Below are positions 8,022 to 27,589 of a stretch of DNA of 36,788 nucleotides, piece by piece (within the stretch, counting starts at the first letter, position 1; every line of letters starts with the position of its first letter). The translations under genes and the position numbers were made by a program. Below the pieces are notes generated by a model. It saw nothing but the letters and a program-made list of their open reading frames with translations. It had not been told where the DNA came from and did no database searches. The stretch is taken from assembly GCA_011772865.1 (NCBI GenBank), contig WVYQ01000009.1:1-36788 (forward strand), in the 5' to 3' direction. Source of the DNA: Woeseiaceae bacterium. Lineage in GTDB: Bacteria; Pseudomonadota; Gammaproteobacteria; Steroidobacterales; Woeseiaceae.

Positions 8022-8048
8022 CGTCGTCTCCTCCTGCTGTTTGCGCAC

Positions 8049-8083
8049 CACGATAGGGAGCGCGCGAACGCGTGTCTATCGTG
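8049..8083. repeat. 8-bp inverted repeat between the operon end and the Cys-rich gene
   Basis: CACGATAG at 8049-8056 and CTATCGTG at 8076-8083 are perfect inverted arms around a 19-base GC-rich spacer. The repeat lies after the stop of the last operon gene and upstream of the ribosome site of the Cys-rich gene. There is no T-run on the minus strand, so it is not a standard terminator. It could be an operator or an RNA hairpin. Confidence 0.4.
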
Positions 8084-8095
8084 ACAATCGCGTAC

Positions 8096-8242
8096 TTACT
8101 TCTCGCACTCCCCGTTACAGCCCCCACATTTGTTGGAGCGTTCAGCGGTATCAGGATCGTGTTTTCTCAACCAGAGCTGGAACGCGGCCCAGAAAACGCA
8201 TAGCGTTACGAGGCCAAGCAATGCGTAGATATAGCTCGTCAT
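8096..8242 (-). CDS. Small membrane protein with CGGC-x3-C tail, last gene of the Rnf operon
   Basis: A 48-residue ORF. One membrane segment spans about residues 4-25 (YIYALLGLVTLCVFWAAFQL), then a short charged stretch and the C-terminal tail KCGGCNGECEK. The ATG at 8242 lies 18 bases after the rnfA stop, with GGAG 12 bases upstream, so it is probably translated as the last gene of the operon. The layout recalls small Cys-tailed membrane proteins such as FeoB-associated Cys-rich proteins and NqrM, but it matches neither closely. A role in metal-centre assembly for the Rnf membrane subunits is an inference from position. Confidence 0.65.
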   Translation of the reverse strand: MTSYIYALLGLVTLCVFWAAFQLWLRKHDPDTAERSNKCGGCNGECEK

Positions 8243-8260
8243 TGCAATCAAGGCTCCATC

Positions 8261-8839
8261 TCAGGTCGTACTGAACAGTCCGGCAAATCCCATGAACGCC
8301 ATCGACAGGATGCCCGCAATGATCAGGTTCATTGCCGTGCCCTTGATGAGTTTCGGGACGTCAGAAAGTTCCGACTCTTCGCGCAGGCCGGCCAGCAGCA
8401 CCAGCGCCAGGGTAAAACCGATGCCGGCGCCAAGCGCATAAACGATACCTTGCCAGAATCCGTAACCGCGGTTCGTGGCGAAAATTGCCAGACCCAGAAT
8501 CGCGCAGTTTGTCGTGATCAGCGGCAGGAAGATCCCCATCGCGCGGAACAACGCCGGACTCAGTTTCTTGATCAGCATCTCGATGAACTGCACGGTACTG
8601 GCGATCACGACAATGAAGCAGATCAGCCTGAGATAAGGCGCATGCACGAGAATATAGGTGTTGAGTAGCCAGGCGCAGACTGCGGTCACGAGCATCACGA
8701 ACGTCGTTGCGAGTCCGAGCCGCGCCGACGTCTCGAGTGAATTGGATACGCCGAGGAACGGGCACAGCCCCAGGAAATACGTCAGCACGAAGTTGTTGAC
8801 GAGCAATGCGCTGACGAAGATCCAGAGGAAGTTATCCAT
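8261..8839 (-). CDS. rnfA: Rnf complex membrane subunit RnfA
   Basis: A 192-residue protein with about six membrane segments. It starts MDNFLWIFVSALLVNNFVL and carries YFLGLCPFLGVS, both characteristic of RnfA. Cys26 and Cys112 (ITTNCAILG) correspond to the pair that, together with the RnfE pair, holds the intramembrane Fe-S centre of Rnf/Nqr complexes. RnfA belongs to the RnfADE membrane core that carries electrons and translocates Na+ or H+. Its ATG overlaps the rnfE stop by one base. It ends the rnfCDGEA block. Confidence 0.95.
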   Translation of the reverse strand: MDNFLWIFVSALLVNNFVLTYFLGLCPFLGVSNSLETSARLGLATTFVMLVTAVCAWLLNTYILVHAPYLRLICFIVVIASTVQFIEMLIKKLSPALFRAMGIFLPLITTNCAILGLAIFATNRGYGFWQGIVYALGAGIGFTLALVLLAGLREESELSDVPKLIKGTAMNLIIAGILSMAFMGFAGLFSTT

Positions 8840-9483
8840 CAGCTCTCGCTCCTCTGCGCGGCGGCAACCTCTTCCAGGAACTCGTCCTTTTTGGACTTGA
8901 ACCAGTTGAAGAACAGCAATATGACGCCAAGCGTCAGGAAACCGCCCGGCGGCAGGATCATGATCACCCAGGGCTCGAAATTCTCACCAAACAGCTTGAT
9001 TCCGAACAACGCGCCGTCACCGAGGATCTCCCTGACCGAACCGAGCGAAAGCAGTGCGAGCACGAAACCGCTTGCCATGCCGATTGCATCCATTACGGCC
9101 AGTTTCGTCGGATACCGCGAGGCGAAGGCTTCCTGCCGGCCCAGGATCAGGCAATTCGCCACGATGAGCGGAATGAACGCACCCAGCTCCTTGTGCACGC
9201 CGGGCACGAGCGCAAGCAGCGTGTAGTCGGCGATCGTAACGAAGGTGGCGATGATGATGATGAAACACGAGATGCGTACCTGCTTCGGAATCAGGTGGCG
9301 GAACGTCGACACCAGGAAGCTGGATCCTACGAGCACGAAGAACGTCGCCATACCCATTGCAACCGCGTTGATTGCCGAATTGGTGACCGCGAGCATCGGG
9401 CACATCCCCAGGACCTGCACGAACACGGGGTTATCGCGCCAGATTCCCTTGAGCAGTTCTTCGCGCGATGGGTTCTTCTTCAT
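8839..9483 (-). CDS. rnfE: Rnf complex membrane subunit RnfE
   Basis: A 214-residue membrane protein starting MKKNPSREELLKGIWRDNP, with the RnfE pattern VQVLGMCPMLAVTNS. Cys28 and Cys111 (IVANCLILGRQEA) are the counterparts of the RnfA pair for the shared Fe-S centre. The chosen ATG at 9483 overlaps the rnfG stop by 4 bases (ATGA); a longer frame to 9561 is only the rnfG shadow. It is homologous to RnfA with inverted topology, as known for this pair. Confidence 0.95.
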   Translation of the reverse strand: MKKNPSREELLKGIWRDNPVFVQVLGMCPMLAVTNSAINAVAMGMATFFVLVGSSFLVSTFRHLIPKQVRISCFIIIIATFVTIADYTLLALVPGVHKELGAFIPLIVANCLILGRQEAFASRYPTKLAVMDAIGMASGFVLALLSLGSVREILGDGALFGIKLFGENFEPWVIMILPPGGFLTLGVILLFFNWFKSKKDEFLEEVAAAQRSES

Positions 9484-10157
9484 TGCCCCGACTCGGTGGG
9501 CGCCTGGCCGGCTGCCTCGAACTGCGGTTCGGAACCCGGCGCCGGCAACAACGCCGACCACTGGGCATGCGCTTCATTGATGATTCTTACAACGGCCTTG
9601 GACGAGATCGTCGCTCCGGTTATCGCGTCGATCTCGTTCGGCTGACTCCTGGTGCCTTTTTTGACGGCGAAAATTTCCGGTTCGATGGATAACGCTCCGA
9701 ATCCGGCGACCCACTCGGCATCCTTGTATATTTTGTCGCCGAGGCCGGGTGTCTCGCGGCTTTCCAGCACCTCCATGCCGACGACCAGTTTCTCGCTTGG
9801 CTTGTAGCCGTAGAGAATCGCAATCGTGTCCTGGAACCCGGGGCCCGCCGCAGGCACGGCGTAACCCACGAATTGTCCCTGTTCGTCATGGCCGCCGTAG
9901 ATGACAGGCTCGTCTTTGTCGGGGCTCGTTACGACGACCAGCTCGCCATCGCGGTGCACGAGTGCCTGCATCTGGCTGACGCCAGGCAGAACTTTGAACA
10001 CGGCCTCGCGCAGCTCGCGGGCCTTGTTCAGCGTGATCGTGGGCAGTGTCGACTCGTAGATACCGATGATCGCAATGCCCGACAACAGCCCGGCTATGGC
10101 CAGCGTCGATACAAGCCGCAGTGAGCCGGGGCTGCCCGTGTTCGCTGGCGCGTTCAT
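9480..10157 (-). CDS. rnfG: Rnf complex flavoprotein subunit RnfG
   Basis: A 225-residue protein with one N-terminal membrane segment (about 16-34) and an exposed FMN-binding domain. The motif D-A-I-T-G-A-T-I-S-S at 177-186 carries Thr183, expected to bind FMN covalently through a phosphoester. The ApbE flavin transferase needed for that is not encoded in this window. ETPGLGDKI at 135-143 is also typical of RnfG. The start at 10157 overlaps the rnfD stop (ATGA). RnfG passes electrons between RnfD and the membrane Fe-S centre. Confidence 0.95.
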   Translation of the reverse strand: MNAPANTGSPGSLRLVSTLAIAGLLSGIAIIGIYESTLPTITLNKARELREAVFKVLPGVSQMQALVHRDGELVVVTSPDKDEPVIYGGHDEQGQFVGYAVPAAGPGFQDTIAILYGYKPSEKLVVGMEVLESRETPGLGDKIYKDAEWVAGFGALSIEPEIFAVKKGTRSQPNEIDAITGATISSKAVVRIINEAHAQWSALLPAPGSEPQFEAAGQAPTESGQ

Positions 10158-11170
10158 TGCGACTCGACCCCGCGTCCGAAGACCCTGGGTTGCGTGTAAC
10201 GATCGATCAGCGGTGTCGCCGCGTTCATCAAAAGAATCGCGTACATGACCCCTTCGGGCAGGCCGCCGAATACCCGAATCAGGATGACGAGAACGCCGAC
10301 GCCGATACCGAAGATCCAGGCGCCCCGCGGCGTAACCGGGGACGTGACCGGGTCGGTTGCCATGTAGATGGCGCCGAGTAACAGGCCGCCCGAAAACACC
10401 GAGAACAGCGGCGTCGGGAAGCGCTCGGCATCGAAGAGACCGAGGCAGGCCGAGAACACGATGACCGTCAGAAGGATGCTCACGGGTATCCGCCAATCGA
10501 GGTCCCGCCGCAGCCACAGGTAAATACCGCCGAGCAGCAGCAACAGGCCGCTGGTTTCACCGAGCGAACCGCTGGTCTTGCCGAACGCGAGGTCCGAAAG
10601 CGGCGTAACTACCTGTTCGAACTTCAACAGTCCCAGCGGTGTCGCTGCCGACATCCCGTCGAGTTGCGCCTGCATGAAGGGCAGCGCGAGATTGCCCGGG
10701 TAGATGGCAAAGAACTCGCCGCCCGTGGACGGCACCCAGGTTGTCATCGCGATCGGGAACGTCGCGAGCAGGAATGCCCGGCCGAGCAGGGCGGGGTTGA
10801 ACAGGTTGTGGCCGAGACCGCCCCAGATGACCTTGCCCAGGGCAATACCGACGAAGCCGCCCAGGAACGCCATCCACAAGGGCAGCCCGGGCGGCAAAGT
10901 GAGGCCGAGCAGAAGGCCGGTCAGGACGCCGCTGGCGTCACGCAGGGATTCGCCCCGCGTCTCTTTATTCGCGAACAGCCACTCGGCCAGAACCGCACCG
11001 GCGATACATGAGCCCAGGACCAGCGCAGCGCTGATGCCGAAGAACCAGAGCGACGCCCCCGTGGCCGGCGCCAGGGCATACAGCACGTCGCGCATCGCGC
11101 TCGGCGTGGTCATTCCCTGGCGCAGCAATGGCGCGTGAAACAGCAGCAGATCCGGATCGCGCTTCTTCAC
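10154..11170 (-). CDS. rnfD: Rnf complex membrane flavoprotein RnfD
   Basis: A 338-residue polytopic protein of the NqrB/RnfD family. The FMN attachment motif is D171-G-M-S-A-A-T177-P-L, with SAAT where SGAT is more usual; Thr177 is the expected ligand. GKVIWGGLGHNLFNPALLGRAF and the C-terminal YMATDPVTSP also match the family. The start is GTG at 11170, overlapping the rnfC stop (GTGA) and giving the normal N-terminus KKRDPDLLL. It is the ion-channel-bearing partner in the complex. The longer open frame to 11278 is a shadow of rnfC. Confidence 0.93.
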   Translation of the reverse strand: MKKRDPDLLLFHAPLLRQGMTTPSAMRDVLYALAPATGASLWFFGISAALVLGSCIAGAVLAEWLFANKETRGESLRDASGVLTGLLLGLTLPPGLPLWMAFLGGFVGIALGKVIWGGLGHNLFNPALLGRAFLLATFPIAMTTWVPSTGGEFFAIYPGNLALPFMQAQLDGMSAATPLGLLKFEQVVTPLSDLAFGKTSGSLGETSGLLLLLGGIYLWLRRDLDWRIPVSILLTVIVFSACLGLFDAERFPTPLFSVFSGGLLLGAIYMATDPVTSPVTPRGAWIFGIGVGVLVILIRVFGGLPEGVMYAILLMNAATPLIDRYTQPRVFGRGVESQ

Positions 11171-12507
11171 GCGTCGACTTCCTTGCGATGAGTAAGGTCG
11201 TCTTTTGCCGTGCGAATGAGTTGCACGATCGGGATGTTCGAGGGGCAGGCGAACGTGCAGCAGCCACACTCGACACAATCGAAAACGTTATAGGCCTTCA
11301 TTTCGTCGAACATGCGCGACTTGGCCAGGCGCGCCAGCCGGGACGGGTTCAGGAAATACGGGCAGGCCTCGAGGCAGCGGCCGCAGGAAATGCAGGGATA
11401 CTCCTTGCGCCTGGCCGTCTGCTTCTCGGTGAACACGAGCACCCCGGAGCAGCCTTTCAGGACCGGCACATCGAGGCTGGCAATGGGACGGCCCATCATC
11501 GGCCCGCCCATGATGATTTCGCGGGTCCCGGGCTTGAGGCCGCCGCAGAATTTCACGACGTCGCGCACCGGTGTTCCCAGCGGGACGATCAGGTTGGCGG
11601 GATACGTCACGCCCGGTCCTGCGACCGTCACGACCCGTTCGATCAGCGGTACGCCGCGCGAGAAGTAGTCGGCGACTGCGACAATCGTGCCGACGTTGTT
11701 GACGTTGACCTCGACATCGCGCGGCAGCTGCCCGGCAGGCACTTCCTTGCCGAAGACGCTCTTGATCATCATCTTTTCCGCGCCTTGCGGATACTTGACC
11801 TTGAGCGCTACGACGCGCACCGGTTGTTCCGGTTGAATGTGCTTGCGCAGGACATCGATCGCGTCGGGTTTGTTGGTTTCGACGCCGATGACTGTCTCTT
11901 CGGCGCCGAGCTTCTGCCGCATGATCTCTGCGCCTTCGAGCAGCGCGTCGGGCCGCTCCAGCATGAGTCGGTGGTCTGTCGTCAGGTAGGGCTCGCACTC
12001 GGCGCCGTTGATCAGGAGGTGCCGGATCCTGACGCCGTCGGGAACTGACAGTTTCACGTGCGCGGGAAATGCGGCGCCGCCCATGCCGACGATGCCCGCC
12101 ATCTGCACCGCTCCGATGAATTCATCGAGCGTCAGCGACTGCCAGTCTATGGGCGTTCCGGCGTCGAGCTGCTGGGTTGCGAACGGATCCGCCTCGATCG
12201 CGATCGCCGGCGCAAAGCGTCCGTCGACACCGCGAAAGTTGCCAATCTCCTTGACTGTGCCTGTGACCGGGCTGTGCAGGGCCGTGGATACGAAACCTCC
12301 CGGTTCGGCAATCATCTGACCGCGATCGACCCGTTCCCCGGCCGCAACCACCGGCCTGGCCGGCACGCCCGTGTGCTGGCCCAGCGGCATGATGTAGTGC
12401 TTGCCGAACGGCACGCGCTGAATCGGCAAATCCGCGGTTTGCTGCTTGTGGTGGGCCGGATGGACTCCGTGCTCGAAGCCGTGGCGCAGGTACCCGAGAG
12501 CTTTCAC
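11167..12507 (-). CDS. rnfC: Rnf complex NADH-binding Fe-S subunit RnfC
   Basis: A 446-residue cytosolic-face subunit, of the short type without the long C-terminal extension of E. coli RsxC. It has an N-terminal barrel-like part and a flavin/NAD region with GMGGAAFPAHVK at 141-152 (Nqo1/RnfC family). Two 4Fe-4S motifs follow, C372-x2-C-x2-C-x3-C382 and C411-x2-C-x2-C-x3-C421. The start is GTG at 12507, with GGAG 9 bases upstream, 5 bases after the stop of the 1382-residue gene. RnfC exchanges electrons with NAD(H). The frame is open upstream to 12747, but that part is antisense-like shadow. Confidence 0.94.
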   Translation of the reverse strand: MKALGYLRHGFEHGVHPAHHKQQTADLPIQRVPFGKHYIMPLGQHTGVPARPVVAAGERVDRGQMIAEPGGFVSTALHSPVTGTVKEIGNFRGVDGRFAPAIAIEADPFATQQLDAGTPIDWQSLTLDEFIGAVQMAGIVGMGGAAFPAHVKLSVPDGVRIRHLLINGAECEPYLTTDHRLMLERPDALLEGAEIMRQKLGAEETVIGVETNKPDAIDVLRKHIQPEQPVRVVALKVKYPQGAEKMMIKSVFGKEVPAGQLPRDVEVNVNNVGTIVAVADYFSRGVPLIERVVTVAGPGVTYPANLIVPLGTPVRDVVKFCGGLKPGTREIIMGGPMMGRPIASLDVPVLKGCSGVLVFTEKQTARRKEYPCISCGRCLEACPYFLNPSRLARLAKSRMFDEMKAYNVFDCVECGCCTFACPSNIPIVQLIRTAKDDLTHRKEVDA

Positions 12508-12512
12508 CGCCG

Positions 12513-15500
12513 TCAGCTCCGCTTCCGGCTCGCCAATTGCATCAGGCGGCTGCGAATATTTTGTGCGATCTCGGCCTGGGTCTGCTCCTTGATCTCGCGA
12601 ATCTCGGTGGCCGAGGCCTGCTTCTGGGCGGCGAGGGCGGCCTCGTGCTCGGCGGCCAGTTCCGCGCGGATCTCCTGCTCGAGTCGCTCGGTAAACGGCG
12701 TGACGATGCCGGCAAGTTCCTGCAGCGTTTGCCAGTTCGCCACGCACTCTTGCCCGGCATCGGCAAGCGCCTGTGATACTTCGACCGCCTGATCGTCATC
12801 GCCGGTCGGCGGCTTGAAGTGCGCGGCAAAACGCGTTTGTCCGCGCGCCCAGTCCGCGAAGGTCACGTCGCCGAGCAATTGATCCGGCGCCGGATTGCCC
12901 TCCAGGCTGATGCGCGATCCGAACACGCCCTCGGACCGCGGATCGTAACGGAACAGTGGCAGGGCGCGGCTCGCGACGGCGAGCTGGGCCTGCACAACGG
13001 ATTGGCTGCTCGGATAACCATCTCTCGCCGGGCTGGGCGCATAGACCTGGAGCAGTGCGGGGCCGTCGTGGCCGAGCGCCCGGAGCATGCTGTCGCCCAG
13101 GTGATCCGGATAGGCGATCGAGGTCTGTGCGACAAATGCGTTGCGCTGTGCGAGGGCCAGCAGCCCGAGACGGCTGCGAGGTCCGAGGTCCAGCGAGCTG
13201 AGCACGAGCACTTTGACCGGCAGGCCCGAATTGAGCAGCCAGATCAGCTGGTTGAGGCCCTGGCCGGCGAGTATCTCGTCGCTGCCGATCAGCAAGAGCG
13301 GCGGACAAACGGCCAGCTCGTCCGCGCTCAGTTCCTGCCAGCGCAGGTTCGCGAGCGCTTCACGCTGCCAGTCGGCGCCATCGGGCTGGTCGACTTCGAG
13401 GCGCGCAAGGTGCAGCAGCCGAACAAGCTCGGTGGTTTCGTCCAGTTGGCCTTCGACGAGGCCCGCCGCGAGCTGGGCCGCATCACCGGTCATGTCGATA
13501 ACGACGGGCGCCTGGAACGGGTTGTGCGGAAATGCGCCAGCCCAGGCTGCCGTGCTGTCGCCTGCAACGGCGAGCCCGTAACGCGCGCGTCCCAGGCCGT
13601 GGCCGCCCTCGACGACCCGATGCCGGGCCGAATCGAGCCGCTTGTTGAGGTCGATCAGGCGCAGCAAGTAATCGGTACTGATCGAGTGATCGGCGGAAGC
13701 GTCACCGATGCCGGCTGCAAGGTCCTTGAGATCCACGCGCGGGCTTGCCGTGTTCTGCAGTTTCTCGGTGACGGCGTCGAGGTCTTCGACGGCAAACGTG
13801 CTCGAGAGCGTCTTGTTAATCAGCTCGGAGACGGACTCGCCGGCCTCGGCCAGTGTTTCTGCGAAGCGCTGCACGATCGGCTGCTGGTAGTACTCGGTTG
13901 CCGCGAGCGCCAGCCTTACTGCCATTTTCTCGCCCGAACCGGCCTCGGCCGGGTCGCCACCGGCGAGCGCAAACTGGCAATAGCGCGACAGCAGGATTGC
14001 AGCCATCCTGCCGATCTCCGGGTCCTTCGCGGCACGTTCCAGGGTCTCTGACGGCGTGTCGGGCGTGGCTGCAAACACCGACCAGACCTCGCGCGCCTGC
14101 TCGAGCGTGGCCGCGTCCTGCTCGATCTCCCGCAGGGCCCCGGGTTCGCAAACGCCGACGCAAATACCGCACGCCTTGCAGGCCTCGGGGTTGACGGCGA
14201 TCGACAGCAGTTCGGCGCCGTCTTTCCTGGCCGCCTCGGCATCCAGGAAGAAAGGCTTCGTTACGGCGACAGGCAGCGAACCGAGGGCCTGGCATATCGC
14301 GTCGACACCGTCCTGTATCGCCTGCTTGCGATCATCCGGAAGCGGCATCTTTTCGCCCAGCCAGGCATGAGCGTCGTTCAGGAGTTCGCCGAACGTCGGC
14401 GCCACGGTCTCGGCTTTCTTGTTGCTCGAGATGATGCGTGATGCAAGTTTTGATGCGACCTGGCGCACGGCATCGGCGCCGGTCCGGCTTATTCCCGCGT
14501 CGATGAGCGCGGCCGGCGTCGCCGCGACGACACCGATCGCGCTGTCGGGACAATGCGTCCAGCACTTGCCGCACCCCGTGCAAAGCGACGGGTCGAACGC
14601 CGGTATCGTGCTTCGGCCGCTGCTCGTGTCGTTGAACGTCGAGCTCAGCGGCGGCATGGTGCCGGTCGCGAGAAACGGGTCGGCGGTCAGGCGATCCGCC
14701 TGGCCATCGCGGTAGAGCACGCCCGCCTGGTCCCAGAAGCGGGGCAGGCTCGCGAAGTTGTCGTCGTCTCGTCCGAGGTGGCGCACCGCGGCCGGTGCTT
14801 CGCCTCGCCAGCGACCGGGGACGTCGACGGCGCTGGCGCCGCCGTCTTCAACCGGCGTCACCTGTTTGAGTCCAGCCTGGAATGCCGCAGCGAGATCCTC
14901 CTTCTGGCGCCGTTCCGCGTCCTCGAGCAGGCTCTTGTGTGCCGCTATGACCCGCCGCGACTTGTGATCCAGCAGACCGGCCCTGATCAGGGCGCCGAAC
15001 AATCCGCCGAGCAGTTTTTCGGCGGCATTCGATGCGCCATCGTCGACCGGCACCCGAAACGCCGCACCCGATTCAGCGATCGACACGGTAGCGCCGGACA
15101 CGTCCAGCGTGACGTCAGCAACGAGATCGTCGCCCGGGTCGTTGAGCGCCTCGTCACCATGGGTCAGCCAGTCGACGACGGTCGCGGACCAATGGCGCCA
15201 CTCGACCGCAGGACGCGTGCGAACCCGGCCACCTTCGAGACCGTGCAATAAAGCGGCGGCCGCACCGAGCAAATCCCCGCCATCGTGACCACGCTGTATG
15301 GCTATCGTCAGCGACTTCTTTTGAGTTGCTCCCGATTCACCGGCTGTTGCGCGAATGGCAGGGCGGGCAACATCGGGATAGGCGCGCCGCAGTGCGTCGA
15401 GCAATACCTCGCGTTTCGGCTGTTCGCCCGACGTGTCGTCGAATGCGAGCCCGAGGTACAGCAGGCCTGGCGGGAGTTCATTGCCGGCAGAGCAGAGTTC

Positions 15501-16661
15501 AACGAGGTCGGCGACTCTGAGCGGTAGTCCGCCGAGACCGTATACGACCGACTTGCAGCGCGGTCGGCGCTTGCTATCGAGGTGATGGATGCTGTTGTGT
15601 ATGTCCCGTGTCATCGGCGGTTCGCCGGAGATCGGGGCGGCAGTGCGCTCGAGTACGAAAACCGCCTCTCGCCCTTCGAGCGCATCGGCGATAGCGGTAG
15701 ACGGGAACGGCCTCAGCGCATGTACGCCAAGTACCCCGGCCTTGACCTTGTGATGTGTGCGCAGGTGATCGGCCGCTGCCCGCGCCGTTTCGATGGCGGA
15801 GCCCTGCGCGACCAATACGGTCTTCGCGTCGTCGAGCCGATAGCTCGACAGTGACGCGTACTGGCGGCCCGTCTTCGCCGCGAATCGCGCAAACGACGCG
15901 TCCAGCGATTCTGCAACGAAGGCATCGAAGAACGGTTGGCGTGCGAAGGCGCCCAGCGCGAAGCTTTCCTTTTCGAACAGCGCACCGGTCAGTACGGGCT
16001 CGTCGAGGTCGTGCCAGGCAGGAACGCGCCGCCTCGTTTCGCCGAACAGCAGCTTTTGCGCGGCTGCCGGTGCAGCGATGCGCTCGCGCGGGTCGCCCGT
16101 GAACTCACCGGCCTGGGGCGGTGACAGCAGCCGCACGTCCTGTGCTGCGAGCGCGGTCTGCTCACTGTCCATGACGACCATGCCCGGCACCAGGGATTCT
16201 TCTGCAACGCGCCGAGCGATGTAGGTGAAGTCGACCGCCTGCTGCACGTTGGCGGCGAAAAGCACAAAGAAACCCGTGTCCGCGCTCAGGTGGACGGTCT
16301 CGTGACCGCTGCCGAGCGTTGCGCCATGCGCTGCAGCGGCACGCGTGCTCACGTGCAATACGAGTGGAACATGCTTGCCGGCCGCCGAGATCAGCAGATC
16401 CTGCGCAGCTGCGATATCCGTGCCGGAAAGAAACGCGGTGACGCGCCGTCCGGCGAGCGCGAGGCCCGTAGCGGTCGCGATGATGCCGCGCGGCCCCTCG
16501 GCGGATTCCACGACGCGGGTCGCGATGCCGGCCTCCGACAGTGCGACCGCACTATTACCGTCGAGCACGCAATCGAGCCCTTCGTCGCGAATGTCCGAAC
16601 CGGCCGGCGCGCCGAACACGTTGCGATACCAGCGGATAGCAATGTTACGCAGCGCGGACAT
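12513..16661 (-). CDS. 1382-residue degenerate PFOR-like Fe-S protein between rnfB and rnfC
   Basis: Collinear with single-chain pyruvate:ferredoxin oxidoreductase (NifJ/PFOR) but apparently not catalytic. Residues 30-180 match domain I (VPLVLHVSTRAAAAHG, ADTGFFVLFAANVQQAVDF), yet the YPITP substrate motif is replaced by LDGNS. Residues 278-350 match domain II. Two 4Fe-4S motifs follow: C694/697/700/704 and C828/831/834/838. Residues 1120-1280 match the TPP domain (AFVAQTSIAYPDHL, LPLFRYDP), but the GDGW...N TPP/Mg motif reads GSDE with no Asn, and the CaGCGETPY cluster motif is missing. A charged coiled coil ends the protein (1320-1380). The gene is intact, overlaps the rnfB stop by one base and is followed closely by rnfC. 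Likely an electron-transfer adaptor or scaffold docking the oxidoreductase on Rnf (inference). Confidence 0.85.
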   Translation of the reverse strand: MSALRNIAIRWYRNVFGAPAGSDIRDEGLDCVLDGNSAVALSEAGIATRVVESAEGPRGIIATATGLALAGRRVTAFLSGTDIAAAQDLLISAAGKHVPLVLHVSTRAAAAHGATLGSGHETVHLSADTGFFVLFAANVQQAVDFTYIARRVAEESLVPGMVVMDSEQTALAAQDVRLLSPPQAGEFTGDPRERIAAPAAAQKLLFGETRRRVPAWHDLDEPVLTGALFEKESFALGAFARQPFFDAFVAESLDASFARFAAKTGRQYASLSSYRLDDAKTVLVAQGSAIETARAAADHLRTHHKVKAGVLGVHALRPFPSTAIADALEGREAVFVLERTAAPISGEPPMTRDIHNSIHHLDSKRRPRCKSVVYGLGGLPLRVADLVELCSAGNELPPGLLYLGLAFDDTSGEQPKREVLLDALRRAYPDVARPAIRATAGESGATQKKSLTIAIQRGHDGGDLLGAAAALLHGLEGGRVRTRPAVEWRHWSATVVDWLTHGDEALNDPGDDLVADVTLDVSGATVSIAESGAAFRVPVDDGASNAAEKLLGGLFGALIRAGLLDHKSRRVIAAHKSLLEDAERRQKEDLAAAFQAGLKQVTPVEDGGASAVDVPGRWRGEAPAAVRHLGRDDDNFASLPRFWDQAGVLYRDGQADRLTADPFLATGTMPPLSSTFNDTSSGRSTIPAFDPSLCTGCGKCWTHCPDSAIGVVAATPAALIDAGISRTGADAVRQVASKLASRIISSNKKAETVAPTFGELLNDAHAWLGEKMPLPDDRKQAIQDGVDAICQALGSLPVAVTKPFFLDAEAARKDGAELLSIAVNPEACKACGICVGVCEPGALREIEQDAATLEQAREVWSVFAATPDTPSETLERAAKDPEIGRMAAILLSRYCQFALAGGDPAEAGSGEKMAVRLALAATEYYQQPIVQRFAETLAEAGESVSELINKTLSSTFAVEDLDAVTEKLQNTASPRVDLKDLAAGIGDASADHSISTDYLLRLIDLNKRLDSARHRVVEGGHGLGRARYGLAVAGDSTAAWAGAFPHNPFQAPVVIDMTGDAAQLAAGLVEGQLDETTELVRLLHLARLEVDQPDGADWQREALANLRWQELSADELAVCPPLLLIGSDEILAGQGLNQLIWLLNSGLPVKVLVLSSLDLGPRSRLGLLALAQRNAFVAQTSIAYPDHLGDSMLRALGHDGPALLQVYAPSPARDGYPSSQSVVQAQLAVASRALPLFRYDPRSEGVFGSRISLEGNPAPDQLLGDVTFADWARGQTRFAAHFKPPTGDDDQAVEVSQALADAGQECVANWQTLQELAGIVTPFTERLEQEIRAELAAEHEAALAAQKQASATEIREIKEQTQAEIAQNIRSRLMQLASRKRS

Positions 16662-17503
16662 CAGACAGCTCCTGCTTTCCGGGATTCCTGATCCTGGAAC
16701 TGTTCGCGCTCGAGCCAGACGATCGATCGGGTGGGGCAGCGAAAGATGGCGTCGGGTCTTGCTTCACCGCCCGATGAGTAGTCGATGATGGGCAGGTTGT
16801 CGCGCATCGTGATCAGGCCGGGCGCGGCGTCGGCGGCGCACTTGCCGCAGGCGTCGCACGCCGCCTTGCAGAGCTGCGTTGCAGCTTCGCCGGCCAGTGG
16901 AATATTGCATTGGACGTACAGGTTCTGGCTAAGCGGCACGAGTTCGAAAAGGTCCCGCGGGCACGCGGCGACGCAATCGGGGCAAGCGCGGCACTTGTCG
17001 ATATCGACCTGTGGCAGCCCGTTGCTGTTCATATGGATGGCGTCGAACGTACAGGCGGCCTCACAGTCCGCCAGGCCGAGGCAGCCCCAGGCGCAACCTT
17101 TGCCGCCGCCGGACACGACGGCTGCGGCGCGGCAGCCTTCGAAACCACGGTACTCGGCTATCTGGCTGGCCTGCAGGTGACCGCCGTTGCAGCGCAGGCG
17201 CGCAACCAGTTTCTCGGCCCGGTCCGCGTCGACCTCGAGAAACTCGGCGATCTGCTCAATGGCCTCGTCGGTGCTGACCGTGCACTGTCCAGGCTCGACC
17301 TCACCGGCGACCAGTTTTTCAGCGAACGGCAGGCAGCCCGGCTGGCCACAAGCGCCACAGTTGGTGCCCGGTAGCAATTCGTTTGTCGCTTCGATACGAG
17401 GGTCTTCGTCGACTTTCAAAAAGCGCTGCGCGATAGCAAGAACCGTACCGAAGAACAGTCCGATTCCTACCATGATGGCCGGTGCTATGAGCAGCGTATT
17501 CAT
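16661..17503 (-). CDS. rnfB: Rnf complex ferredoxin-like subunit RnfB, long acetogen-type
   Basis: A 280-residue protein with one N-terminal membrane segment (3-24). The N-terminal cluster motif is C49-x2-C52-x4-C57...C74. C105 and C124 follow, then ferredoxin-like motifs C137/141/147/151 and C171/174/177/181, and a further Cys set at 199, 212, 216, 219, 222 and 256. This multi-cluster form with GCLGLADCEAAC is like the RnfB of acetogens and Bacteroidota and is much longer than the roughly 190-residue RsxB of enteric bacteria. RnfB is the entry point for ferredoxin electrons. Its start overlaps the stop of the 819-residue gene and its stop overlaps the 1382-residue gene. Confidence 0.93.
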   Translation of the reverse strand: MNTLLIAPAIMVGIGLFFGTVLAIAQRFLKVDEDPRIEATNELLPGTNCGACGQPGCLPFAEKLVAGEVEPGQCTVSTDEAIEQIAEFLEVDADRAEKLVARLRCNGGHLQASQIAEYRGFEGCRAAAVVSGGGKGCAWGCLGLADCEAACTFDAIHMNSNGLPQVDIDKCRACPDCVAACPRDLFELVPLSQNLYVQCNIPLAGEAATQLCKAACDACGKCAADAAPGLITMRDNLPIIDYSSGGEARPDAIFRCPTRSIVWLEREQFQDQESRKAGAV

Positions 17504-19962
17504 CAGTTAAACGGCTCGGCGCGAGCGATCAGTTCGTCAAGGCCCGGTTCGTTCGGATCCAGGGGTTTGCCCGGATGGATGCACTTCGCGGGACAAATCT
17601 CGGCAGCCGCAACGAGATCGGCATACGGCCCGGCCCTCGGGTCCGTGATGATCGCCTGCTTGTCGTCGTTGTACGCAAACATCATCTTGTTAATGCCCAT
17701 GCAGTCGTCGCAGGTCGTGCACATCGCGGTGTCGAGCCAGGGTTCGTCGAAACTCAGTTCTTCTTCGGGCTCCTCCTCCGCAACCGGCTCCGGTTCTGCC
17801 TCGACCTCCTCGGGCGGTGATTCGATTTCGGCGGGCGCTGCAGCCGGCATCGTTGCCAGCGGCGCGCCGCCGGCGATCATGCCTGACAGATCGGCGCCCA
17901 TCAGGACGTCGACGAGCTGTCCCATGGCCTCACCGGCCGCCTCCGAACGAACGGTTTCCAGTTGCTCTTCGTGTTCTTTCTTGAGTTGCTCGCGCTCGGC
18001 TTCGATCGCGGCGCGCTGTTCTTCGACGATTCGCTCGATCGCCTCCTCGACATAGAAGTTCTGAATGCCAGCCAGCTCCTGCAGCGAGCGCCAGTAGTTG
18101 AGCCGGTCGCGGCAGGCGAATACGAGCGCGCGGGACACGACAAGTCGCATGAGCACGCCCTGATCGTCGATCGCCCAGATGAATGGCACGGCACGATCGG
18201 CGAGTTCGTCGTCGACGTCCAGGTATCGATCGACCGGAATCAGGTCATCGGACTCGACGCCAACAGGCACTACGCGGAAATGTTCGTGCAGTGCAGGCAT
18301 CAGCAATGCATAGTCGGCAAACGTAAACGCGAGATCCATCTCGGTCACTTCGCCGTCGGCAGCCTGGTACTCGAGTTTCTCGACCGGCCAGTCCGCCTCG
18401 GCCTGCGGGTTGCCGCCGAAGCTGACTCGCTCCGCTGCACGGTCTCCGGCGTCAGGGTTCACGAGGACAAACGGATGGGCACGGCTTTCCAGCGCCGCGC
18501 TCGCGACAAACCACGCCTCGAGCAGCGGTTTTTTCGTCTTGGTCTGGGTGCCGCGATTGATCAGGTGCAGGCTCGTTCGATTGCTATCCAACGCGCAGAG
18601 GAATCCCGACAGGAGGTCGTGGTAACGGGCAGCGGACGTCTGCGCGACGACGACCTGGCGGTGGCCTATGCCGAGGTAGCCGAGTTCGAAGCGGTACGAA
18701 TCGAACGGGTCCTCGCCCGGTTTTGCGGCGGGATTGTCGTAAGCGCGGATCCAGCTCAGCACGTGCACGGGAAGACGCGATCCCAACAGTTGCGAAAACG
18801 AGGGCAAACCGTCGCCGGCAAGGTAGTCCGCGGATACCAGCGCGACGACGCGGGTAACGAGCTGCAACTCGTCGTTCGTGAAGGCCTGCCAGTCGAAACC
18901 GGCAAACCACGAATCGTGGACAGCCGGGTCGTAATTGCCCTCGATCTCGAGAGCCGCAATCCTGAGCGCAGCAAACAGGCCCGCGAACTCCGCGGCGTCG
19001 CTCGCAAATACCCGGGCCGCCTCGGTGCACGGGTCGTCGCTCGCAACCAGTTGCAGGTCCGGCACTTCGGCAAACCAGGGGTCGTCGACTCGCCCGACAA
19101 ACCGCACCAGCACCGCGTCATCGGACCAGTTCTGCAGCGCCTGCAGCGCGCGTTCGATCCTGGCCCGGCGTTCTTCCGGCATCTCGACCGAACCGTGCGA
19201 ACGATGCTCGAGCATGCCGGACAGGGCGCCGCTGTCGATGTAACGGGATCCGAGTCCGACGCTGGTCTTTATGCTTGCGGGTTCGTTGGCGTCGGTCGAC
19301 TTCGCTTTCTCGACATCGAGCAGCGCCTGTAATCCGTTTATTCGCGTGTCGATCTCTTTGTGAAGCAGCTCTCGCTGCCGACCCTGCCGATGCCGAATCG
19401 CATGCAGCATCAAGTGCAACGAGACGCTCGGTCCGTAGCCCAGGAATTGGCCACCCGCGGCTATCGCGCCCTGGAGTTTGCCGAGATCGGCATCCAGTTT
19501 TTCCCGATTCTGCGAGCCCAGGTCGAGATGCTCCTGCATGGCCGCAGCCGCTTCCGCAAACATTGCGACGGCATCGACGGGATCGGATCCGTCGAGTTTC
19601 TGGCGCAGGTAGCGCTCGATCCAGGGCAGATTGTCCTTCAGGATCCTGGCGTCTTCCGCGGCGGGCGCAAATGTCTCGAGCGATTCCATGAAATGCTCGC
19701 TGGCAGGCTTCGCCAGGACAGAGTGGGCCTCGTCGCCGATGGGAACCAGGTACAGCGGGTACTGGTAACGAATGGCTGACGCATCGCGATAAGCGTTGAG
19801 CAGGGCGGGCAGTACCGTGTCTGCAGGGCGGTCCAGGCTCGCTGCCGCTGCAGGCTCGCCGAAGTGGAAACGCCGCAACCGGCTGATCGTGCCGGCGCTC
19901 ACATCGCGCTCGTTGCCGCTGGCTTCGGGTGCTTCGCGTTTGCTTTCCAGTGCGAAATTCAT
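17503..19962 (-). CDS. 819-residue degenerate PFOR-like protein with a tethered ferredoxin domain
   Basis: I recognise no named family. Residues about 360-570 resemble the TPP domain of PFOR and align with 1120-1280 of the 1382-residue protein: DELQL, ADYLAGDGL, LPVHVLSWI, RQVVVAQTSAA, FGGNPQAE. TPP-binding residues are absent. Residues 622-680 share WRSLQELAGI followed by a charged coiled coil. An Ala/Pro/Glu-rich acidic linker (about 705-740) leads to a C-terminal ferredoxin-like unit, C748-x2-C751-x2-C754 and C790-P-x2-C794. Residues 50-350 are helical and unassigned. The start at 19962 follows GGAG; the gap to the beta-subunit gene is 12 bases. Likely an electron carrier or scaffold between the oxidoreductase and RnfB (inference). 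Confidence 0.8.
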   Translation of the reverse strand: MNFALESKREAPEASGNERDVSAGTISRLRRFHFGEPAAAASLDRPADTVLPALLNAYRDASAIRYQYPLYLVPIGDEAHSVLAKPASEHFMESLETFAPAAEDARILKDNLPWIERYLRQKLDGSDPVDAVAMFAEAAAAMQEHLDLGSQNREKLDADLGKLQGAIAAGGQFLGYGPSVSLHLMLHAIRHRQGRQRELLHKEIDTRINGLQALLDVEKAKSTDANEPASIKTSVGLGSRYIDSGALSGMLEHRSHGSVEMPEERRARIERALQALQNWSDDAVLVRFVGRVDDPWFAEVPDLQLVASDDPCTEAARVFASDAAEFAGLFAALRIAALEIEGNYDPAVHDSWFAGFDWQAFTNDELQLVTRVVALVSADYLAGDGLPSFSQLLGSRLPVHVLSWIRAYDNPAAKPGEDPFDSYRFELGYLGIGHRQVVVAQTSAARYHDLLSGFLCALDSNRTSLHLINRGTQTKTKKPLLEAWFVASAALESRAHPFVLVNPDAGDRAAERVSFGGNPQAEADWPVEKLEYQAADGEVTEMDLAFTFADYALLMPALHEHFRVVPVGVESDDLIPVDRYLDVDDELADRAVPFIWAIDDQGVLMRLVVSRALVFACRDRLNYWRSLQELAGIQNFYVEEAIERIVEEQRAAIEAEREQLKKEHEEQLETVRSEAAGEAMGQLVDVLMGADLSGMIAGGAPLATMPAAAPAEIESPPEEVEAEPEPVAEEEPEEELSFDEPWLDTAMCTTCDDCMGINKMMFAYNDDKQAIITDPRAGPYADLVAAAEICPAKCIHPGKPLDPNEPGLDELIARAEPFN

Positions 19963-19974
19963 TTTTGCTCCGGG

Positions 19975-20931
19975 CTAAATGGCGAAACCGTCCAAAGCCT
20001 TGTTGATACCGGCAAGTTTCTCGTCGACGCTCATGTCCAGTCCGACGGATGACATCAGGTCGTACCGCGGCGCATCCGGGTTGTGATAGAGAATGCCCAG
20101 CGGCAGGACGGACTCGTCGGCCGCAATCGCGAGCGCCGCGGGGAGGTCCGACGGGTCATGCTCGCCGTGGTTCGGAAACAGCCGCTTGACGTTGTCGTCG
20201 ACCTGCACACCTTTTTCGTGCGTTAGCAGCCGCATTTTTGCCGGTTCGTCCTGCAGTGCCTTGCCGATTGCTTCCACATAGACCGGGCAACGCTGGATGA
20301 TGCGAACGAAGCTGGTTCCCTTGTGCTCGTGCGCCTTCTTGATCACTTCGTGCCGCAGCGGCGCGTTCCAGTCGACGATTTGCGCGACAAAGGAAATATT
20401 GGTGACGCCGAGCGTTACCGTCAGCGGGTTCAATGGCGGCAATAATGCGCCTGAGGGATGCGTGTTGGTGGGCACGTCGATCGGAGTGGTCGGCGAAGTC
20501 TGTTTCTTGGTCAGGCCGTAGATGCCGTTGTCGAAGACAAGCAGCGTCATATCCATGTTGTAACGCATGGCATGAACCCAGTGGGCCGCCCCGATCGAGA
20601 AACAGTCGCCGTCACCGGTCGCGACCCAGACGTCCAGGTCGGGGCGCCGGGACTTGATACCGCAGGCAACGGGCAGGGCACGCCCGTGGAGGCCATGAAA
20701 CCCGTAGGTGTTCATGTAATGCGGCAGGCGGCTGGAGCAGCCGATGCCGGACACGGCCACGGTTTTTTCCGGCTTCACCTGCGCATCGCGGCAAACCCTG
20801 TGTACGGCCGCCAGGATGCCGTGGTCGCCGCAACCGGTGCACCAGCGGGGCTCGGCGCCGCAGTAGTCTTCCAGCGTGAAATAGCGATCCTTGACCTCGA
20901 GAGACCAGTCACCTTTCAAGCCGAACATCAT
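19975..20931 (-). CDS. korB: 2-oxoacid:ferredoxin oxidoreductase, beta (TPP) subunit
   Basis: A 318-residue catalytic subunit. Cluster ligands are C31-x2-C34, C65 in SGIGCSSR and C214 in QRCPVY. The TPP/Mg motif is GDGD at 106-109 with N135 in FDNGIYGLTKKQ, all intact. This is the KorB/PorB layout of multi-subunit enzymes that oxidise 2-oxoacids (2-oxoglutarate or pyruvate class) with CoA to acyl-CoA, CO2 and reduced ferredoxin, or run in reverse. The exact substrate cannot be fixed from the sequence. The start at 20931 follows AAGGAGC and overlaps the alpha-subunit stop (ATGA). Confidence 0.93.
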   Translation of the reverse strand: MMFGLKGDWSLEVKDRYFTLEDYCGAEPRWCTGCGDHGILAAVHRVCRDAQVKPEKTVAVSGIGCSSRLPHYMNTYGFHGLHGRALPVACGIKSRRPDLDVWVATGDGDCFSIGAAHWVHAMRYNMDMTLLVFDNGIYGLTKKQTSPTTPIDVPTNTHPSGALLPPLNPLTVTLGVTNISFVAQIVDWNAPLRHEVIKKAHEHKGTSFVRIIQRCPVYVEAIGKALQDEPAKMRLLTHEKGVQVDDNVKRLFPNHGEHDPSDLPAALAIAADESVLPLGILYHNPDAPRYDLMSSVGLDMSVDEKLAGINKALDGFAI

Positions 20932-23030
20932 TTTGCTCCTTCGATTTCTGCGAGCCGCGAGTCAATGACTTTGCCGATTGCGCCGGGTTGCAGCGGATGG
21001 CCGGGGACTTTTGACCAGCAGTCGATGTCCATTAGCGTGTGGGCGCGCAGTACATTCGCGAGCTGCGAGTAACGGCGATTGTCCCCGTTCGTCAATGGGG
21101 AGCCGGGATCGTCGCTGTAGTTGATCTCGATCGTCATGACCTTCTTGAAGCCCGAGAAGATTTCTTTGAGGCCGGGCTCCATCGGCGACAGGAAGCGCAA
21201 ATGGACTGACGACACGTTCTTGCCCTGTTCTCTCGCCAGGTCGACCGCTTCTTCGATCGCACCGAGCGTCGAACCCCAACCGACGATCAGGAGGTCTCCG
21301 GTTGCGTCGCCATGGATCTCTGGCGGTTTCAGCGTCCCGGACAGCGTTGCCAGCTTGCGACTGCGCATGTTCATGCCTTCCTGGTTCGATGCGGAGTCGT
21401 AGGCAATCTTGCTGTTCTGATTGTGCGCGAGACCCGTCAGGATGTACTCGCCATCGCGCATTCCCGGGATCGGCCGTGGCGATAATCCGGTGGTCTCGTC
21501 CCAGTTGTAAGGTGCTATGTCCCGGTCCCAGGCCGACTGGTCGATCGGGGGTGCGAACCACTCATCGGTGACTTCGGGCCGTTCGATCGGTTGCACACCG
21601 GTCGCGAGATTCGCATCGGTCAGCAGGATCACAGGCGTGCGGAACGACTCCGCTAATTTGCGCGCCATGACGACAAAGTGAAAGCACTCGGAAATCGTTG
21701 TCGCCGCGATGACGATCTTGGGGGAGTCGCCCGGCGAGCCGTACAGGCTTGCGAGCAGATCACCCTGCTCGATCTTGGTCGGAAGGCCCGTAGCCGGGCC
21801 GCCGCGTTGTACGTCGACGATCACCAACGGGATCTCGGCCATGACCGCAAGGCCGATCATTTCGGTTTTCAGGGCCATGCCGGGGCCGGAGGTGATCGTG
21901 CATGCCGTCTTCCCGGCATAAGAAGCACCGATAGCAAAGCCGATCGCGGCAATCTCGTCCTCGGCCTGGTGGACAAACCCACCCGTCAGGTGAAAGTCGT
22001 CTGCCAGGTAATGCGATGCCGACGTCGCCGGCGTGATCGGATACATCGCGACCATTTCGATGCCGGCAGCCATAACACCGAGTCCAACCGCGGTATTACC
22101 ATTGATGACCACGGCCGACTCCAGGCGATCTTCGGGGTCTGCGGGCAATTCGAACTCGTAATCGAGGTGCTCGCGCGCGAAAGCGTAGCCGGCATCGAAC
22201 AACTCGTGATTGACGCTGATGACCTTGTCGCTCTTTCTCCTGAAGGTCTTGGCAATTTCGCCTTTGGCCGTGTCGACATCGCGATGATAAATGGCGCACA
22301 ACATCCCGAGCACGAACATGTTCTTGCCCTTGCGCGGATCCGGAACGACCTTGAGACACTCTTCCTGTATCGGCAGTTCATGAACGACCAGTCCCTGTGC
22401 GCGAAAGTCGGCGACTGCTTCCCGATACTGTTTGCGGATTCTTTCCTCGGGATCCTCAGCCCACATGTTCTCCAGCAGGACGACCGTGCCTTGCTTGTAG
22501 GCGCGGTTATCGATGCGGGAATAGAGCACCTGCTCGTTGAACGCGACGACCATATCGGCCTCATTGCCCATGTTGGTCACTTTCTTCGACCCCATGCGGA
22601 CGCGAATGCCGCTCGCACCCTGGCGCTCTCGCGCAGGCGGCTGAATTTCGGCCGGAATGATCTCAACGGTCCAGACACCGTTGCCCATCTTGCCGCTGAC
22701 CAGCCCCAGGATCTGGCCGCATTTCTGCGCGCCCTCGCCGGAGTCGCTGACGATTTCGACGATATGCTGGTCTACCAGCTGGGCGCCGCGCTTCGCATTG
22801 GCCACATCTTCCGAACCATTGGCGCGAACCTCATCAATCTTGCTGCGGAGCGCCTCGACGGCAGCCCAGCGCGCTTCGCGCGCGGCTTCGATGTCGTGGG
22901 TATGCAATGAGCGGCGCAGGTCGTAGCCCAGGGCCTTGCGCAAGGACCGCGGCACTGCAACTTTGACCCACCAGGTGTTGTTTCTCTTGAACAGGTATTT
23001 CGTATCGACTGCGGATGCGGATTTTTGCAT
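20928..23030 (-). CDS. korA: 2-oxoacid:ferredoxin oxidoreductase, fused gamma-alpha subunit with integrase-type N-terminal domain
   Basis: A 700-residue protein in three parts. Residues 10-65 (YLFKRNNTWWVKVAVPRSL, then RRSLHTHDIEAARE) resemble the DUF6538-type domain normally found at the N-terminus of tyrosine recombinases. Residues about 88-290 are the gamma domain (SGEGAQKCGQILG, IIPAEIQPPAR). Residues 305-700 are the alpha domain with MYPITPATSAS (329-) and RGGPATGLPTKIEQGD (409-). The catalytic parts look complete. The ATG at 23030 follows AGGAAG at good spacing, so the N-terminal domain appears to be translated. This is the first gene of the operon; it pairs with the beta subunit. The longer open frame to 23165 is less likely. 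Confidence 0.9.
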   Translation of the reverse strand: MQKSASAVDTKYLFKRNNTWWVKVAVPRSLRKALGYDLRRSLHTHDIEAAREARWAAVEALRSKIDEVRANGSEDVANAKRGAQLVDQHIVEIVSDSGEGAQKCGQILGLVSGKMGNGVWTVEIIPAEIQPPARERQGASGIRVRMGSKKVTNMGNEADMVVAFNEQVLYSRIDNRAYKQGTVVLLENMWAEDPEERIRKQYREAVADFRAQGLVVHELPIQEECLKVVPDPRKGKNMFVLGMLCAIYHRDVDTAKGEIAKTFRRKSDKVISVNHELFDAGYAFAREHLDYEFELPADPEDRLESAVVINGNTAVGLGVMAAGIEMVAMYPITPATSASHYLADDFHLTGGFVHQAEDEIAAIGFAIGASYAGKTACTITSGPGMALKTEMIGLAVMAEIPLVIVDVQRGGPATGLPTKIEQGDLLASLYGSPGDSPKIVIAATTISECFHFVVMARKLAESFRTPVILLTDANLATGVQPIERPEVTDEWFAPPIDQSAWDRDIAPYNWDETTGLSPRPIPGMRDGEYILTGLAHNQNSKIAYDSASNQEGMNMRSRKLATLSGTLKPPEIHGDATGDLLIVGWGSTLGAIEEAVDLAREQGKNVSSVHLRFLSPMEPGLKEIFSGFKKVMTIEINYSDDPGSPLTNGDNRRYSQLANVLRAHTLMDIDCWSKVPGHPLQPGAIGKVIDSRLAEIEGAK

Positions 23031-24331: not shown

Positions 24332-24411
24332 CGCGTTCTCCTCTCATCGATGCGTTCAGAGTACGCTGATTGGCCGGTGTACTCAACCGCAATAAATGGC
24401 ATGCTTGCTGC

Positions 24412-27482: not shown

Positions 27483-27589
27483 ACGTTTCGCCGCCAATTT
27501 GGCTCGTCTCATCGGATTGAGAGGCACCTCTCGCCGCAATTCTGGTCCTATTGGCATCGGATCAATTGCATGGGGAGGGGCTGACTACC

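Follow-up and report, generated by a model that had tools for sequence, protein, structure and literature searches.

We analysed a 36,788-nucleotide stretch of DNA (the window below: contig WVYQ01000009.1 of assembly GCA_011772865.1, from a Woeseiaceae bacterium of marine sediment) whose minus strand carries, from 23030 to 8096, an operon for a two-subunit 2-oxoacid:acceptor oxidoreductase (KorAB), a complete Rnf complex, two very large proteins called p819 and p1382 here after their lengths in residues, and a small CGGC peptide. The eleven open reading frames (ORFs) are all co-directional and abut or overlap according to the ORF calls and translations, and their order is KorA-KorB-p819-RnfB-p1382-RnfC-D-G-E-A and then the CGGC peptide (Table 1). 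The first-pass annotation of this DNA had described eleven overlapping or nearly abutting ORFs on one strand in this order, and the ORF coordinates and family matches bear that description out. KorA and KorB overlap by 4 nt, KorB and p819 are 12 nt apart, p819/RnfB and RnfB/p1382 overlap by 1 nt each, p1382 and RnfC are separated by 5 nt (if the RnfC start is GTG 12507, which was our choice), RnfC/D, D/G and G/E share 4 nt each and RnfE/A 1 nt, and 18 nt lie between RnfA and the CGGC peptide (ATG at 8242, stop at 8096). The genome assembly consists of 46 contigs, is 84.6% complete and contains a single p819; Woeseiaceae genomes from metagenomes account for several of the nearest named loci, which points to Gammaproteobacteria as the class of the window.

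Both giants are derived from pyruvate:ferredoxin oxidoreductase (PFOR/NifJ), as the following matches show: p1382, which is at the short end of the 1360-1475 aa range of its nearest relatives, scores above the Pfam cut-offs for PFOR domains I and II and has Fer4 motifs as well, and p819, whose sole Pfam match is Fer4_13 at its C-terminus, has a profile that matches the C-terminal half of p1382 (E 2e-60). An AlphaFold2 (AF2) model of p1382 residues 640-1382 (mean predicted local distance difference test score, pLDDT, 85.8; predicted template modelling score, pTM, 0.81) superposes on PFOR with Z 42.4 and a root-mean-square deviation (rmsd) of 3.7 over 429 aligned residues, and the p819 model (pLDDT 78.1, pTM 0.70) does so with Z 22.2 and rmsd 5.5 over 300 residues. 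The fold of PFOR domains V-VI is thus present in both predicted structures, and in both a long helix follows the PFOR-like part.

The motifs of these proteins were tabulated in relatives collected with the p819 profile or the p1382/p1650 profile, never with KorB or Rnf. Five duplicate loci (L052, L053, L055, L057 and L088) were dropped, and p819 proteins under 700 aa (fragments L047, L059 and L068) and big proteins under 1100 aa (L048 and L091) were left out; L098 was kept in spite of its broken frames (below). In the resulting table of 44 big proteins, where KorB was counted as beside at >45% identity, within 9 kb and on the same strand, all 27 p1382-type proteins with an adjoining p819 have lost the thiamine pyrophosphate (TPP) site motifs GDG, SNTGGQ and AYPITPS and the cysteines of the proximal cluster, and all 27 have kept both distal [4Fe-4S] motifs. 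Big proteins that lack both p819 and a close KorB as neighbours have intact GDG, SNTGGQ and proximal-cluster cysteines in 16/16 cases and AYPITPS in 15/16 (the L044 fragment begins after that motif); these live-type proteins are ~1630-1720 aa long (apart from the L044 fragment) and have the two distal [4Fe-4S] motifs plus a C-terminal ferredoxin domain. L039 was counted as lacking KorB, although its stretch holds a distant KorAB-like pair (25-37%). A motif scan found neither YPITP nor SNTGGQ in any of 37 p819 proteins, and the cysteines of the p819 C-terminal cluster are kept in 36 of them, the exception being the frame-broken L098. By these motifs p1382 and p819 are both predicted to be catalytically dead, and they belong with PFOR through their ancestry, not through their function. 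Ordinary NifJ as an identity for p1382 is ruled out by the motif table and by the tree described below. Two p819 loci are peculiar: in L098 (G092, a one-contig genome) KorA and p819 are broken into several frames by sequencing error or real decay, and in L099 (G271, 8136-11066) a 977 aa p819 within an NfnAB-KorAB operon has its C-terminal ferredoxin domain three times in tandem.

The dead proteins are under purifying selection. The ratios of nonsynonymous to synonymous substitution rates between L032 and L050, which we worked out from the computed dN and dS, are ~0.13 for p819, ~0.17 for p1382, 0.08 for KorB and 0.02 for RnfB. Between the window and L029/L049, p819 and p1382 are 76-78% and 73-75% identical, KorA 83-84%, and KorB and RnfA-D 86-94%.

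KorAB fits a two-subunit 2-oxoacid:acceptor oxidoreductase, with a gamma-alpha fusion and a beta subunit, intact TPP motifs and one [4Fe-4S] cluster. KorA scores over its NCBIfam cut-off, and KorB is below its own with a clear match (Table 1). The YPITP and QAED columns of KorA are invariant in an alignment of 20 sequences (A3), the four cluster cysteines of KorB are kept in 27/27, and GDGD is kept in 40/40 KorB-type proteins scanned, a few of which come from outside these operons. The motifs thus indicate an intact active site within KorAB itself, with KorB as the live catalytic site. The KorA N-terminus carries a DUF6538 domain (window ~22824-22997, minus strand), which is also found in L029, L036 and L058 and not in L060; DUF6538 is known from tyrosine integrases, and a domain of this DNA-binding type is odd on a metabolic enzyme.

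The Rnf part of the operon includes rnfA, B, C, D, G and E. RnfA, B, D and E are over their NCBIfam subfamily cut-offs, RnfG is a clear match under its own, and RnfC, scanned with Pfam only, passes there and has its FMN/NADH domain and two [4Fe-4S] motifs; the 20 cysteines of RnfB are kept in 25/25. The ITGATISS stretch of RnfG is presumably its flavin motif. Elsewhere in this genome lies another Rnf locus, of standard order (rnfA-B-C-D-G-E), which contains no giant genes, encodes an RnfC 37% identical to that in the window and is followed by a gene that we read as nth. Of 19 non-redundant loci of the window's type that were examined, 16 have a CGGC-like peptide after RnfA (20/23 with duplicates), and the homologue in L090 has a weak FeoB_associated match (E 8e-4); the peptide is perhaps a helper in Fe-S or flavin maturation of Rnf.

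Table 1. ORFs of the operon in the window, in order of transcription
Feature	Coordinates	Strand	Basis
KorA, gamma-alpha fusion with N-terminal DUF6538	20928..23030	-	TIGR03710 508.8 bits (cut-off 482.75); POR_N, POR, PFOR_II, DUF6538 (Pfam)
KorB, TPP beta subunit, one [4Fe-4S]	19975..20931	-	TPP_enzyme_C 89.2 bits; NCBIfam 226.2 bits (cut-off 261.9)
p819, PFOR C-terminal half, dead by motif, with C-terminal single [4Fe-4S] ferredoxin domain	17503..19962	-	Fer4_13; profile match to p1382; AF2 model
RnfB, 280 aa	16661..17503	-	TIGR01944 80.3 bits (cut-off 68.7); PRK07118.1-3 211.8 bits; FeS domain
p1382, PFOR/NifJ, dead by motif, two distal [4Fe-4S] motifs	12513..16661	-	POR_N, PFOR_II, Fer4; motif table; AF2 model
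RnfC, NADH/FMN-binding subunit, two [4Fe-4S] motifs	11167..12507	-	RnfC_N, Complex1_51K, SLBB, Fer4_8 (Pfam)
RnfD	10154..11170	-	TIGR01946 329.6 bits, over cut-off
RnfG	9480..10157	-	TIGR01947 91 bits, under cut-off 102; ITGATISS stretch in translation
RnfE	8839..9483	-	TIGR01948 226.4 bits, over cut-off
RnfA	8261..8839	-	TIGR01943 242.6 bits, over cut-off
CGGC peptide, 48 aa (range 48-51 aa)	8096..8242	-	Hydrophobic N-terminal half, then KCGGCxxxC; no Pfam match

The operon is flanked by two copies, 47% identical, of a cysteine-rich 133 aa protein with no Pfam match, one adjoining its end (7650-8051, minus strand) and the other on the opposite side (23957-24343, minus strand); relatives of this protein adjoin L047, L056 and L107. 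On the plus strand 27551-30285 encodes the [2Fe-2S] and molybdopterin-binding subunits of an enzyme of the xanthine-dehydrogenase/aldehyde-oxidase type.

Co-occurrence of the two giant families with Rnf and korAB across genomes had been set beforehand as the check on the first-pass annotation, and it is nearly complete, in partial support of the electron path between a 2-oxoacid and NAD that this annotation had proposed. KorB adjoins p819 in 36 of 37 non-redundant p819 proteins (the exception, L091, is cut by a contig end), and RnfB or Nfn adjoins it in 36/37. All 44 non-redundant long p1382/p1650 proteins have rnfB and/or rnfC beside them, as do 17 of 19 further big-protein loci; of the other two, L142 has no rnf gene in the 10 kb downstream, and the stretch of L136 is wholly intragenic. 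The full-length class B proteins (below) at the further loci agree with the motif table, L145 lacking the exact string GDGAM, and the class B genes of L137 and L150 are split across two frames.

The relatives fall into three classes. Class A has the gene order of the window from KorA to RnfA, with dead PFORs in 27/27, and is found in the same genus, the same order and other genomes of the class, and in L060, from a genome titled Deltaproteobacteria and placed in Myxococcota. Since the order recurs in other species, the arrangement is not due to chance; retention in Gammaproteobacteria and in that one Myxococcota-placed genome rules out chance adjacency. Class B has a live PFOR before rnfC-D-G-E-A and no close KorAB (16/16); rnfB mostly precedes the PFOR, with exceptions in L104 and the Persicobacter plasmid L108, where it lies beyond rnfA. 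Class C has NfnA-NfnB-KorA-KorB-p819 with no Rnf seen, in 8 of 9 loci (the ninth contig starts inside KorA); the NfnAB genes are in the operon at L061, L062, L064-L067, L099 and L107, and the hosts are titled Acidobacteria, Alphaproteobacteria, Betaproteobacteria and others and include two genomes of the window's class. No NfnAB genes lie beside the window's operon. The KorAB-p819 module is thus found with two different ferredoxin/NAD(P) transducers, Rnf or Nfn. The earlier view of both giants as extra Rnf subunits needs correction for p819: it is better seen as a partner of KorAB, since no Rnf shows in the stretch of 9 of the 37 p819 loci. One locus looks like a step between classes B and A: on the Gemmatirosa kalamazoonensis plasmid L109 (4125-19507) the order is KorAB-RnfB-intact PFOR (of the 1650 aa kind)-RnfC, and p819 is absent. 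G023 has class A and class B loci on different contigs. At a contig end, L138 (G039:C70) has rnfD and rnfC 84-85% and p1382 61% like those of the window; its genome also holds the divergent class A locus L037, and L138 is either a second copy or a stray contig.

Among 60 genomes (the window's own and 59 relatives), 25 match p819 at E 0.001. Sorted into types by our own reading, as were the matches in the next draw, they include class A p819 in 16 genomes (own included, two in part), class C in one and 1650 aa relatives or pieces thereof in 11, some genomes carrying two sorts. Of 369 genomes drawn from the class, at least 36 match, with p819 in at least 13 (own included), a 1650 aa relative in at least 20, both in at least 4, and 7 weak matches; a draw of 398 genomes of the phylum gave p819 in at least one, the window's own, 1650-1700 aa relatives in at least 10, and 38 weak matches. 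These two sets of counts are lower bounds, as at most two candidates were scored per genome. In a tree with six ordinary NifJ proteins as the outgroup, dead p1382 forms a single clade (100/100) and p819 another (100/99), with long stems of 0.76 and 0.79. The p819 tree and a quick, partly unresolved KorB tree have the same main split, between a Woeseiaceae-type set and class C plus L037, L038 and L097.

What is the substrate of KorAB? Succinyl-CoA synthetase genes sucC and sucD lie between p1382 and rnfC in G160 (named by family) and in G277, G276 and G092 (named by N-termini). In six genomes (loci L118, L119, L120, L121, L122 and L093) KorA is preceded by a small [2Fe-2S]/[4Fe-4S] protein of the diaphorase kind, a fumarate-reductase-like flavoprotein and a NuoF-like subunit, which were named by family matches for the G160 and G156 proteins and by N-termini for the others, and which are perhaps a soluble NADH:fumarate reductase; in G092 an opposite-strand LysR-like gene separates this set from KorA, and in G156 a malate dehydrogenase gene lies beyond the cluster. 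Because of the succinyl-CoA synthetase in four related operons, together with these KorA-side neighbours, 2-oxoglutarate/succinyl-CoA is most likely the couple of KorAB. The first-pass annotation had left the 2-oxoacid general; to it are added here the PFOR origin of both giants, their loss of catalysis as judged by motif, and 2-oxoglutarate as the likely substrate. Among 11 class A genomes examined, no 2-oxoglutarate dehydrogenase E1 scored over the cut-off in G160, G277, G376 and G393, so replacement of that enzyme by KorAB is possible and limited to these four. In the window genome such replacement is ruled out by the presence of E1.

Taken together, these observations make it fairly probable that the products of the operon form a 2-oxoglutarate:NAD+ oxidoreductase that is bound to the membrane and translocates ions, with dead PFORs as electron carriers between KorAB and Rnf. 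Electrons would pass from the KorB [4Fe-4S] cluster to the C-terminal ferredoxin domain of p819, from there through the two [4Fe-4S] clusters of p1382 to RnfB, and then through Rnf to NAD+ at RnfC while Rnf translocates ions; p819 would be the relay that docks KorAB, and p1382 the relay between p819 and RnfB. We assume that p819 and p1382 may pair in the manner of PFOR monomers. The 2-oxoacid couple is at about -0.5 V and NADH at -0.32 V, a difference that aerobic 2-oxoacid dehydrogenases lose; here the drop would be stored as an ion gradient rather than lost as in 2-oxoglutarate dehydrogenase. In reverse, an ion gradient would lift electrons from NADH to carboxylate succinyl-CoA.

Such a complex might instead work mainly as a reductive carboxylase, with gradient-driven NADH electrons passing via p1382 and p819 to KorAB to convert succinyl-CoA and CO2 to 2-oxoglutarate. 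This differs from the oxidative reading by direction alone, and we give it a real but lesser chance. The KorA-side genes of six genomes, SucCD of four and malate dehydrogenase of one would make up the branch from malate to 2-oxoglutarate, and E1 of 2-oxoglutarate dehydrogenase does not show in three genomes of the set, all of them small; the neighbours in the six genomes thus fit a reductive branch. The same neighbours would, however, serve an oxidative cycle equally well, the divergent LysR-like gene parts them from KorA in G092, and the window has neither those genes in its operon nor a genome free of E1. Nothing in the window decides the direction.

Mere co-expression, in which KorAB reduces soluble ferredoxin, Rnf re-oxidizes it, and p819 and p1382 are scaffolds or maturation factors, we regard as unlikely. 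In its favour, Rnf uses soluble ferredoxin, the complex is predicted from genes, and p819 and p1382 diverge faster than the partner subunits. Cluster cysteines, however, would be needless in a scaffold, and they are kept at the distal sites of p1382 (27/27) and in p819 (36/37); moreover, class B has a live PFOR at the same spot before rnfC. It is still more improbable, to a degree that we would be surprised to see it borne out, that p1382 or p819 retains an enzyme or ligand role of its own (for example with CoA or another 2-oxoacid) that is hidden by motif loss. A wire would need less than the PFOR domains I and II that p1382 matches over the Pfam cut-offs, but the TPP motifs of both halves are gone from every p1382-type protein, and the two scanned motifs from every p819.

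Several points weigh against an ion-translocating KorAB-Rnf complex with dead PFORs as its wires, or against parts of that picture. With E1 in the window genome, KorAB is not the only route from 2-oxoglutarate there, and the window's own operon lacks sucCD. The proposed electron path is read from cluster motifs and gene order. Foldseek puts PFOR first for p819 yet gives low TM-scores, for which reason the fold assignment of p819 rests on the Z-scores. A p819 is not needed in every such operon, as the KorAB and Rnf genes of L109 stand together and have none. The 27 dead proteins form one clade, so the coincidence of motif loss with neighbourhood may go back to one event that all of them inherited, and would then not amount to 27 independent tests. 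The live group is weakly supported (90/57), with branches shorter than those of the dead clades, and a quick, midpoint-rooted Rnf tree fits a single loss poorly: its main class A group takes in L109, with its intact PFOR, and leaves out L038 and L097, which are class A loci too. This conflict could stem from an exchange of genes, from long-branch error or from repeated loss.

How does the operon compare with known systems? It has all six Rnf subunits with their family domains in one operon, as in other Rnf complexes, and differs in the PFOR-derived protein between rnfB and rnfC and in KorAB and p819 in front. The likeness to PFOR/NifJ (TIGR02176) lies in matches to domains I, II, V and VI and in the fold of the C-terminal half, whereas p1382 and p819 lack the TPP motifs, p1382 lacks the proximal-cluster cysteines, and even an intact 1650 aa relative (L041) scores 395.9 bits against a cut-off of 911.35 and has an extra C-terminal ferredoxin domain. 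Azoarcus evansii KorABC (2-oxoglutarate:NADP+) and PadEFGHI (NADH-linked phenylglyoxylate dehydrogenase) are 2-oxoacid oxidoreductases with a pyridine-nucleotide-reducing partner; they are soluble, and a flavoprotein takes the place that an ion pump and its PFOR-derived relays would have here. The two-subunit KorAB enzymes of Mycobacterium tuberculosis, Thauera and Magnetococcus have, in the accessible parts of their descriptions, the same gamma-alpha fusion plus beta subunit, intact motifs and one [4Fe-4S] cluster; the window's enzyme differs in that p819 follows it and that gene order ties it to Rnf, and its relatives to NfnAB.

The clusters for the reductive tricarboxylic acid cycle in tubeworm symbionts (PMC6315080, PMC11636981) likewise have 2-oxoglutarate oxidoreductase and Rnf genes together. 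According to the parts of those two papers available to us, their KorABCD has four subunits and is interspersed with Flx-Hdr, which was suggested to deliver electrons directly to the oxidoreductase, and there is no mention of a PFOR-derived protein encoded between rnfB and rnfC; dimeric korAB is commoner among gammaproteobacterial autotrophs and lies beside other tricarboxylic acid cycle genes in one symbiont (PMC6315080), and korAB and a 'PFOR-like' gene of Endoriftia both fall under sulfide limitation (PMC11636981). That 'PFOR-like' gene may be a relative of p1382 or p819. Other papers, also as available in part, report RnfE and RsxB transcripts of Woeseiales at one site only (PMC7451513, from whose text the words 'oxoglutarate' and 'ferredoxin' are absent), korAB, porABCD and two rnf sets listed without linkage in Thiomargarita (PMC4853749), korAB paired with sucCD in Azoamicaceae (PMC11549363), and data in support of a role for an Nfn homologue in the anaerobic breakdown of aromatics by Rhodopseudomonas strains without korAB (PMC9973337). 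Neither a PFOR-derived subunit placed between rnfB and rnfC nor an NfnAB-KorAB-p819 operon turned up in literature that did not extend to supplements (such as Fig. S4 of PMC6315080) or to most subscription papers.

PFOR fold, motif loss and common clades underlie our reading of how the giants arose. The ancestral operon would have had a live PFOR between rnfB and rnfC; in this lineage the PFOR would then have lost catalysis, been duplicated or split, and come to serve KorAB as dock and wire by means of the fold and outlet clusters that it retained. These loci could represent an undescribed family of 'ion-pumping 2-oxoacid dehydrogenases', made up of an Rnf that incorporates a pyruvate oxidoreductase, the live PFOR ahead of rnfC, a descendant in which a dead-PFOR adaptor plugs a 2-oxoglutarate oxidoreductase into Rnf, and the same KorAB-p819 head placed on Nfn elsewhere, a proposal that we put forward with a little less than even confidence. 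If it is true, a decarboxylation step of the citric acid cycle would be a direct and reversible site of membrane coupling: a KorAB-Rnf or PFOR-Rnf complex would store as a gradient the energy that is otherwise lost, or spend a gradient to fix CO2 at succinyl-CoA, and would keep low-potential ferredoxin from exposure to oxygen. This bears on how a low-potential enzyme is run beside respiration in abundant sediment bacteria (Woeseiaceae and others). The operons also hold an enzyme that has lost its catalytic motifs, has kept its outlet clusters and is now apparently a wire, and its live, intermediate and dead forms can be compared.

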